Below are positions 55,504 through 57,641 of a stretch of 64,000 nucleotides of DNA, piece after piece. Each line of letters starts with the position of its first letter. Position 1 is the first letter of the stretch. The position numbers were made by a program, and so were the translations under genes. The notes under the pieces were generated by a model, which made no database searches, was not told the origin of the DNA, and saw nothing but the letters and a program-made list of their open reading frames with translations. The stretch is from Rhodospirillaceae bacterium SYSU D60007. GTDB taxonomy: Bacteria > Pseudomonadota > Alphaproteobacteria > Reyranellales > Reyranellaceae. The DNA lies in the NCBI GenBank assembly GCA_003574685.1, contig QOCQ01000012.1, positions 1 to 64,000 on the forward strand. Direction: 5' to 3'.

Positions 55504-56390
55504 GCGCGGGCGGCCTGCACGACGGCGTTCTTCATCGCGCGCTGGAGCTTCTCGAAGGCCCGCACCTCGATCTGGCGCACGCGCTCGCGGCTGATCTTGA
55601 ACTCGTCCGACAGGTCTTCGAGCGTCTTGGGCTCGTCGATCAGCCGGCGCTGCGTCAGGATGTGCCGCTCGCGGTCCGACAGCGTACGCATCGCGTCGGT
55701 CAGCAGGGCCCGGCGCTGCTCCAGCTCCTGGCTCTCGGAGAAGCGCGCTTCCTGGTCGGGCGTGTCGTCGACCAGCCAGTCCTGCCACTCCGACTCGCCG
55801 TCGGTGCGGGTCGGCGCGTTCAGCGACTGGTCAGGCGCCGTCAGGCGGCGGTTCATGTTGACCACCTCGTCCTCGGGCACGCCCAGCCGGTGCGCGATCT
55901 TTTTTACCTGCTCGGGGTTGAGATCGCCTTCCTCGATTGCCTGCATCTGGCCCTTGATCTTGCGCAGGTTGAAGAAAAGCTTCTTCTGCGCCGCCGTGGT
56001 GCCCATCTTCACCAGCGACCAGCTATGCAGGATGTATTCCTGAATCGAGGCGCGGATCCACCACATGGCATAGGTCGCCAGCCGGAAGCCGCGGTCCGGA
56101 TCGAAGCGCTTCACCGCCTGCATCATGCCGACATTGCCCTCGGAGATGAGCTCACCGATGGGCAATCCGTAGCCGCGGTAGCCCATGGCGATCTTGGCCA
56201 CCAGCCGCAGATGCGAGGTGACCAGCTTGTGCGCCGCGTCGGTGTCATTGTGCTCGCGCCAGCGCTTGGCGAGGATGTACTCCTCGTCCTGCGACAGCAT
56301 CGGGAATTTGCGAATCTCCTGCAGATATCGGGTCAGGTTCCCGTCTGGCGACAGGCTGACAACGGCAGGCAGTGCGGCAGCAGTAGCCAT
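55500..56390 (-). CDS. rpoH: RNA polymerase sigma-32 factor
   Basis: The 296-residue sigma factor has region 1.2 (LTRYLQEIRKFPMLSQDEEYILAKRW), region 2 (LRLVAKIAMGYRGYG...RFDPDRGFRLATYAMWWIRASIQEYIL), the RpoH box QKKLFFNLR (135-143), and region 4 with its HTH (TLEDLSDEFKISRERVRQIEVRAFEKL). It directs transcription of heat-shock genes. GGAGGGGA lies just before the ATG at 56390. The promoter overlaps a CIRCE operator, and the 5' leader is about 110 bases. The gene ends tail-to-tail with the GDYXXLXY gene, the stops overlapping. Confidence 0.97.
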   Translation of the reverse strand: MATAAALPAVVSLSPDGNLTRYLQEIRKFPMLSQDEEYILAKRWREHNDTDAAHKLVTSHLRLVAKIAMGYRGYGLPIGELISEGNVGMMQAVKRFDPDRGFRLATYAMWWIRASIQEYILHSWSLVKMGTTAAQKKLFFNLRKIKGQMQAIEEGDLNPEQVKKIAHRLGVPEDEVVNMNRRLTAPDQSLNAPTRTDGESEWQDWLVDDTPDQEARFSESQELEQRRALLTDAMRTLSDRERHILTQRRLIDEPKTLEDLSDEFKISRERVRQIEVRAFEKLQRAMKNAVVQAARA

Positions 56391-56480
56391 ATCTCCCCTC
56401 CGGTTGCGTGCGGGACTCCCAAGCGGCTGCCCCGTACGTAGCGGAACGCGTCAGGTAACGCGGTGGCTCCCAGCCCAGCA

Positions 56481-56507
56481 TTGGCACTCGGATACCACGA
56501 GTGCCAA
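56481..56507. promoter_or_regulatory. CIRCE operator (HrcA-binding) at rpoH
   Basis: TTGGCACTC (56481-56489) and GAGTGCCAA (56499-56507) are perfect inverted repeats with exactly 9 bases between, against the known CIRCE consensus TTAGCACTC-N9-GAGTGCTAA. The site begins right after the predicted -10 box of rpoH and covers the expected transcription start, the classic position for HrcA repression. Confidence 0.88.
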
Positions 56508-56536
56508 AATATATGCTGCGCTGCGGCGTCACGCAA
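56508..56536 (-). promoter_or_regulatory. rpoH promoter
   Basis: On the minus strand TTGCGT (56536-56531) and TATATT (56513-56508) are spaced by 17 bases. The start of transcription should fall near 56501, inside the CIRCE element. An overlapping CTTGCGT...CAGCATAT pair at 12 bases also has some sigma-32 character, so autoregulation is conceivable. Confidence 0.65.
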
Positions 56537-56570
56537 GCACGATACCCGAGTAAACATGTCGGAAATGTGT

Positions 56571-57641
56571 TCAGTCCAGCGACCTGAGCAACAGAATTAA
56601 TTCATTGAGATCATGAGGAAATCTTGTCTCGAATGCGACCTTCCGGCCGTTGCCGGGATGGTCAAATGCGAGCAACTGCGCGTGAAGCGCCTGCCTTGGA
56701 AAGGTTCTAACCACTTGGGGCAGCGTGCCAGAACGGGCCACCCGACCGCCGGCATAGAGCGCATCGCCGATCAGCGGATGGCCGCGATGGGCCATGTGCA
56801 CGCGTACCTGGTGGGTGCGCCCGGTCAGCAGTTCGCAGCGTACGAGACTGGCCGCAGGTTTGGTCGCCGCGCCGAACGTCTCGATCACGGCATAGCGCGT
56901 CGCCGCCGGCTTGCCGCCGCTGCGGACCACCGCCATGCGCTGACGGTCGCGCGCATGGCGGCCGATATTGCCTTCGATCAGGCCCGCCCGGGGCAGGGGC
57001 GCGGCGTAGACGGCCGCGACATAGGCACGATCAATCGTGTGCCTGGCGAACTGCGCCGCGAGCCCGCTGTGGGCCCGGTCGTTCTTGGCGACGACCATGA
57101 CCCCGCTCGTATCCTTGTCCAGCCGATGCACGATGCCGGGCCGGCGCACGCCGCCGATGCCGGACAGGCTGTCGCCGCAATGGGCCAGCAGGGCATTGAC
57201 CAGGGTACCGTCGGGATTGCCGGGTGCGGGGTGGACCACCAGTCCGGCGGGCTTGTCGAGCACCAGCAGGTCGGCGTCCTCGTACAGGATCTCCAGCGGG
57301 ATCGCCTGCGGCTGGGGGATGGCCGCCACGCTCTCGGGCACCCTGATTTCATAGGTCTCGCCTGCCTTGACCTTGTGGGAGGCGTCGGCCATCGTCGCGC
57401 CCGCCTTGCCGGGCGCCTGGCGCAGGACGCAGCCAGACTCGATCAGGGCCTTGCCGCGGCTGCGTGACAGGCCCGGCAGCCAGGCCGCGAGGCGGCGGTC
57501 GAGCCGGTCGCCGTCATCTTCGGCAGCGACGGTGTGGCTGTAATGGCCGGCCGCCGGGGCGTCCGCCGCGACGTCTGCGGGCGGCAGGACATCATCGTCG
57601 AGATCGTTGTCGGCTGTCGGCGAGGGGCTGCGGCGGGCCAT
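56571..57641 (-). CDS. rluD: RluA/RluD family 23S rRNA pseudouridine synthase
   Basis: The 356-residue protein has an acidic N-terminal extension of about 35 residues, an S4 RNA-binding domain (DRLDRRLAAWLPGLSRSRGKALIESGCV) and the RluA catalytic domain with HRLDKDTSG (172-180, catalytic D175). LTGRTHQVRVHMAHRGHPLIGD follows. It converts uridines in helix 69 of 23S rRNA. The ATG at 57641 is used; a longer frame overlaps the divergent gene. It lies upstream of rpoH on the same strand, 180 bases apart. Confidence 0.92.
   Translation of the reverse strand: MARRSPSPTADNDLDDDVLPPADVAADAPAAGHYSHTVAAEDDGDRLDRRLAAWLPGLSRSRGKALIESGCVLRQAPGKAGATMADASHKVKAGETYEIRVPESVAAIPQPQAIPLEILYEDADLLVLDKPAGLVVHPAPGNPDGTLVNALLAHCGDSLSGIGGVRRPGIVHRLDKDTSGVMVVAKNDRAHSGLAAQFARHTIDRAYVAAVYAAPLPRAGLIEGNIGRHARDRQRMAVVRSGGKPAATRYAVIETFGAATKPAASLVRCELLTGRTHQVRVHMAHRGHPLIGDALYAGGRVARSGTLPQVVRTFPRQALHAQLLAFDHPGNGRKVAFETRFPHDLNELILLLRSLD

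Follow-up and report, generated by a model that had tools for sequence, protein, structure and literature searches.

A Predicted HrcA Operator over the Putative Transcription Start of rpoH, Conserved in the Sampled Genomes of Reyranella and Relatives

The rpoH gene of Rhodospirillaceae bacterium SYSU D60007 is preceded by a CIRCE inverted repeat with perfect arms, which is very probably a working HrcA operator lying over the predicted transcription start, with a housekeeping promoter driving transcription. The repeat was found in the window, i.e., the whole stretch of 64,000 nucleotides analyzed here (contig QOCQ01000012.1, positions 1 to 64,000). In the window species and in the relatives examined, one stress sensor (HrcA) would probably control the supply of the other (sigma-32). 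HrcA repression and sigma-32 activation are usually drawn as parallel systems in Proteobacteria. Control of rpoH by HrcA is proposed because an operator, a matching promoter layout, the hrcA gene, other CIRCE sites and conservation of the repeat are found together, and it is also favored by cases in seven other families and by a prediction in Geobacter.

The CIRCE Site and the Promoter of rpoH

The site is an 18-base operator interrupted by an N9 spacer (Table 1). All 18 arm bases fit TTAGCACTC/GAGTGCTAA with the G/C variant at position 3 and its partner; the spacer is 9 bases long and varies in sequence among loci (N9 in all 41 family loci, a length that the scan assumed); the site overlaps or adjoins the predicted promoter and start of a stress gene, rpoH; and hrcA is present in the same genome (PF01628, 213.5 bits for a cut-off of 22.2). 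No further CIRCE match exists in the window, even with up to three mismatches, the mean in dinucleotide shuffles being 0.02.

The earlier note had placed a perfect CIRCE just downstream of a 17-base-spaced rpoH promoter, and these coordinates are borne out on the minus strand, where the two promoter-like hexamers are 17 bases apart and CIRCE comes directly next. This promoter matches the consensus at 8 of 12 positions, with only 3 of 6 in the -35 alone, and was not listed by an automated promoter scan with a threshold of 9/12. The weakness of the window -35 lowers the case for HrcA control, as do the congeneric loci L009 and L010, both scoring 6/12 and the latter being without a convincing promoter. 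The rpoH start lies 90 nt downstream of CIRCE, and the stop codon of the RluA-family gene 63 nt upstream of it. The rpoH product is RpoH according to TIGR02392 (374.5 bits vs. a cut-off of 323.1), a profile with two matches in the genome, among which the window rpoH alone is above the cut-off. A terminator for the upstream RluA-family gene was considered and rejected, as none was found in 56300-56700.

Table 1. Features of the rpoH locus, with positions numbered along the window.
Feature	Position	Strand	Basis
CIRCE operator (predicted HrcA site), TTGGCACTC-N9-GAGTGCCAA	56481..56507	-	Pattern match and family conservation
-10-like hexamer TATATT, adjoining CIRCE (predicted)	56508..56513	-	Promoter match; family -10 placement
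-35-like hexamer TTGCGT (predicted)	56531..56536	-	Promoter match; TTGAC in 38/41 family loci
isc-type (IscR-like) palindrome ATTTCCGACATGTTTACTCGGGTAT, 5 nt upstream of the -35	56542..56566	-	Alignment and motif scoring
rpoH, heat-shock sigma factor sigma-32, 296 aa	55500..56390	-	TIGR02392 profile match
RluA/RluD-family pseudouridine synthase, upstream neighbor of rpoH on the same strand	56571..57641	-	Family match

hrcA and the Other CIRCE Sites of the Genome

A search of the genome for hrcA and for further CIRCE, as proposed in the earlier note, recovered a single copy of the repressor gene and three good sites besides the one at rpoH. Judging from ORF translations, the hrcA locus runs in the order rph-like gene (opposite strand), hrcA, grpE, and dnaK, hrcA alone having been tested with a profile; it has no CIRCE, the best match there showing 7 mismatches. 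Altogether, the pattern scan of the genome returned four good CIRCE (0-1 mismatch) and a fifth match having 3 mismatches. The good sites other than that of rpoH are located upstream of groESL, of an hsp20 gene pair, and of a DUF1178 gene; the divergent neighbors at the hsp20 and DUF1178 sites are a putative aminotransferase and a putative methyltransferase.

The degenerate site with 3 mismatches lies upstream of a second groEL-like gene (L251, G000:C18:65910). The hsp20 genes form a tandem pair behind a perfect CIRCE (L002, G000:C14:38197); no hsp20 gene was found behind the 32 CIRCE retrieved from relatives among the matches listed. A CIRCE precedes the DUF1178 gene (PF06676) both in the window genome (L003:1001-1471, G000:C45) and in nine of the relatives (L217, L219, L221, L223, L227, L231, L233, L235, and L237), and from these sites the gene looks like a recurrent member of the HrcA regulon. 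The N-terminus of its protein reads as a putative zinc ribbon. Ruc from M. tuberculosis, which the available passages of PMC7448276 describe as a redox-regulated chaperone likewise controlled by HrcA, offers, purely by analogy, a possible parallel in function to the DUF1178 protein.

Conservation across the Family

The family sample (f1, Reyranella and relatives) consisted of 37 genomes (G000-G036), the window genome being G000. A CIRCE precedes rpoH in each of the 35 sampled genomes having an intact rpoH start; left out of this count are one genome without an rpoH match (87% complete) and one with rpoH at a contig end (67% complete). The earlier note had made its interpretation depend on conservation of the repeat before orthologous rpoH genes, which is what was seen in every testable genome of the family. 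Six further contigs bring the family loci to 41, including L040 and L043, which duplicate loci of the 35; the genus g3 is taken as Reyranella, as L040 (Reyranella sp.) has the same rpoH upstream as L030 (G020, g3). Counted strictly, i.e., when position 3 may be G or A and the base paired with it C or T, arm mismatches number 0 in 5 of the 41 loci, 1 in 35, and 2 in 1. In G037 (L035), a genome of the same order, CIRCE was not found upstream of rpoH.

The repressor is nearly as widespread, hrcA being found in 23/24 sampled f1 genomes (the exception is 67% complete). In 8 of 14 g3 genomes, rpoH and groESL have the sole CIRCE-like sites among the matches listed, at up to 2 mismatches to the relaxed CIRCE pattern. 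Non-rpoH CIRCE fetched from relatives amount to 32 among the matches listed (30 from f1 and 2 from G037, the sites of G001-G003 being left out), 23 of them at groESL and 9 at DUF1178.

That the arms are kept while the spacers vary, together with the presence of the site in all 35 genomes, points to selection on the CIRCE arms. This bears on the view that CIRCE is a leftover or acts too weakly, the stability and translation of sigma-32 being the main means of rpoH control. Such a view is in line with E. coli, where post-transcriptional control of sigma-32 dominates, and with the occurrence of at least one non-consensus arm base in 36/41 family loci; however, it fits poorly with selection on the arms and with the perfect site of the window itself, and is considered decidedly improbable.

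Regarding the promoters, TTGAC is found at the best -35 in 38 of the 41 family loci, scores of at least 9/12 are reached in 32/41 loci compared with 2.7% of mononucleotide shuffles, and the best -10 ends between -2 and +6 nt from CIRCE in 40/41. It can alternatively be hypothesized that sigma-32 itself recognizes the rpoH promoter, CIRCE being a secondary brake, since sigma-32 autoregulation of rpoH has been reported in Caulobacter and the window sequence reads CTTG-N18-CATATAT, near the alphaproteobacterial sigma-32 consensus. However, the relatives combine TTGAC with TANANT-like -10 boxes, a housekeeping pattern, and the sigma-32 promoter, which agrees with the window yet disagrees with the majority of relatives, was set aside as unlikely. 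A housekeeping promoter under HrcA is the preferred arrangement. The proposal of the earlier note, in which HrcA would repress the gene for the heat-shock sigma factor itself, is supported at the level of sequence by hrcA, the other CIRCE, the 35/35 conservation and mostly recognizable promoters.

An Asymmetric Operator

At position 7 of the promoter-proximal arm, G replaces C in 36/41 family rpoH loci (30/35 sampled genomes), and the opposite arm keeps its partner G at every one of the 41. A change at the same place was found in 2 of the 32 non-rpoH CIRCE of relatives, among the matches listed. The CIRCE of the window is of the perfect form. When placed on an RpoH protein tree (38 distinct family rows, one of which, L279, is on a long branch), the arm state requires at least two changes, one separating the g3-g4 clade from the rest and one within the genus of the window, a count that does not tell gain from loss. 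The C-to-G form is perhaps a tuned operator; selection for a weaker site is something that we infer with caution, because only two events are involved. Being a departure from consensus in 36/41 loci, the change might also reduce HrcA control, and to this extent it weakens the case for such control.

The same base also helps to decide whether the repeat works in DNA or in the mRNA leader, where it could form a hairpin or RNA thermometer of rpoH. In E. coli, an RNA thermometer controls rpoH translation, and the repeat lies near the transcript start, the predicted start being in most relatives at the outer edge of the repeat, such that the stem could be transcribed. In the window, however, the predicted start falls inside the left arm, so that part of the stem would be missing from the transcript, and the leader fold is no better than that of shuffles (z -0.17), which led to the rejection of this candidate. 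Moreover, 36 of the 41 family loci have a G-G mismatch in the stem, the arms otherwise retaining the operator letters. A change that breaks the stem and spares the other operator letters speaks for a function in DNA over one in RNA, and a leader element is regarded as barely credible next to an HrcA operator.

CIRCE at rpoH outside the Family

Across the class, CIRCE at rpoH is rare, which counts against HrcA control: outside the family, 1/74 named alphaproteobacterial rpoH loci has it (L056). A further survey covered 80 rpoH upstreams chosen among the matches listed (338 of 387 class genomes had an rpoH match), 4 of which were shortened by contig ends. Six of the 80 (G145, G148, G190, G193, G289, and G119) have a CIRCE that departs from the relaxed pattern by no more than 1 mismatch, a number that is not a rate since the set favored genomes with at least two CIRCE (45/80). 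Degenerate CIRCE with 3 mismatches occur at rpoH of G123 and G270 in the same set, and G047 is another rpoH case outside the family. The seven cases with at most 1 mismatch span seven families (f110, f113, f52, f131, f88, f84, and f12). A TTGAC-type promoter scoring 9/12 ends on CIRCE in G145, G193, G289, and G047, and a TTGACA-type promoter ends 7 nt before it in G190 and G270; promoter scores are low elsewhere (7 in L056, 7 in G148, and 6 in G119). As regards the number of sites per genome, the 0.8-Mb alphaproteobacterial genome G237 stands out with nine that are CIRCE-like; the second-ranking count in the sample of 387 is four.

There is a precedent for an HrcA operator on rpoH: CIRCE was predicted upstream of Geobacter sulfurreducens rpoH (Rodionov et al., 2004; PMC545781, Table 8); the predicted operator is here conserved across the family sampled. 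As described in the available part of PMC545781, G. sulfurreducens likewise has a consensus CIRCE near the rpoH start codon (position -51) and one at groESL. Unlike the window species, it belongs to another class, and it also has a CIRCE at hrcA-grpE-dnaK-dnaJ, absent in the window genome. The Geobacter case is a prediction only, for one species of those studied, and the available part of that paper does not mention arm asymmetry or a second palindrome.

A Second, isc-Type Palindrome by the -35

In the alignment of family upstreams, a palindrome close to ATACCCGA-N9-TCGGATTT is conserved immediately ahead of the -35. It was seen upstream of rpoH in L008-L034 and L036-L043, and in many g3 loci a similar copy also covers the -10. 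Among isc loci, a motif score of at least 17 is reached in 19 of 25 orientable loci (26 fetched), with shuffled maxima of 14-16; the motif is located either in the iscR promoter or about 1.5 kb further on, where a NifS-like gene ends directly ahead of iscS. A matrix made from 19 isc-cluster sites recognizes 35/36 rpoH upstreams at p ≤0.01 (L056 plus 35 family loci, a set without the six that were fetched last) and 0/64 flanks of other CIRCE sites, in a test that was not fully blind, the isc-site consensus having been drawn up after the rpoH palindromes were viewed and with the help of an E. coli consensus. With the same matrix, 33/74 named and 26/80 further alphaproteobacterial rpoH upstreams are positive (59/154), compared with 1/71 control regions downstream of rpoH. 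In seven g3 genomes, the rpoH-palindrome pattern occurs at rpoH in 7/7, at the isc cluster in 1, and at two other places in G023.

None of the four isc loci from the genus of the window reaches 17 (scores of 14-15), and the iscR promoter of the window genome has weak palindrome copies only. The Rrf2 protein of this genome has IscR (TIGR02010) as its best hit, with 187.1 bits and below the cut-off of 207.55; in the cluster of G008, a neighbor is IscS, above its own cut-off. A generic IscR consensus scan of the window genome gave no excess over its reversed control (23 vs. 35), and a looser palindrome score applied to class rpoH upstreams gave no clear pattern.

For Caulobacter crescentus, the available text of PMC11475020 reports IscR targets as confirmed in its gel-shift section, one of them being the regulatory region of rpoH, and also cites earlier work on the rise of rpoH in iron deficiency. 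The window resembles this case in having an isc-type palindrome by the rpoH -35, but the motifs in the available text are unlike the window palindrome, and the HrcA site is not involved there. IscR may add an Fe-S input to rpoH.

Proposed Control of rpoH and Its Meaning

HrcA binding, repression, heat induction, and feedback at rpoH are what we infer from these sequences. A housekeeping promoter would drive rpoH, with CIRCE covering the start point. In unstressed cells, GroEL-folded HrcA on CIRCE would keep rpoH transcription low, as for groESL. When misfolded protein fills GroEL, HrcA would become inactive and rpoH be derepressed, and the new sigma-32 would switch on the wider heat-shock set; the rise of GroESL would then restore HrcA and close the loop. 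The dependence of HrcA on GroEL in Alphaproteobacteria is drawn from a review on Caulobacter crescentus, where CIRCE and HrcA control groESL and GroESL keeps HrcA folded (PMC8119881). The class, the operator and the repressor are the same as in the window species; the difference is that the target named in the available passages of this review is groESL, with no mention there of CIRCE at rpoH.

Counting against HrcA control of rpoH, the title of one cited work terms the roles of RpoH and HrcA in Agrobacterium independent. HrcA control of rpoH is not described in the available parts of PMC3989490, PMC10696704, PMC7448276, PMC8119881, PMC3557214, PMC6032397, PMC4989314, PMC8762339, or PMC2758279. 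A family-wide CIRCE at rpoH, an asymmetric operator and a combination of CIRCE with an isc-type site did not come up in the portions of the open full-text literature searched.

A broader reading is offered tentatively and with somewhat less than even confidence. The rpoH promoter would join two stress sensors that are not related to each other, an IscR-type input, sensing Fe-S through the palindrome by the -35, and an HrcA input, sensing free chaperonin through the operator over the start; the HrcA operator would have switched between perfect and weakened forms at least two times, at the same base and in the same arm, which would determine whether rpoH derepression comes before, or is less tight than, that of groESL. 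Of the two, the IscR-type input would be found widely in Alphaproteobacteria, and HrcA control would have been added repeatedly. Confidence in this integration is slightly lowered because the isc loci of the genus of the window stay below 17, the IscR-like protein is below its cut-off, and the genome scan gave no excess, and likewise because the motifs printed in PMC11475020 differ and the direction of the arm change is unsettled. With HrcA control of rpoH, the HrcA and sigma-32 systems would act in series, an arrangement kept throughout the sampled family, with chaperonin occupancy setting the supply of the global heat-shock factor, and the recurring one-base difference in the arm would provide a natural series on operator strength versus order of derepression.
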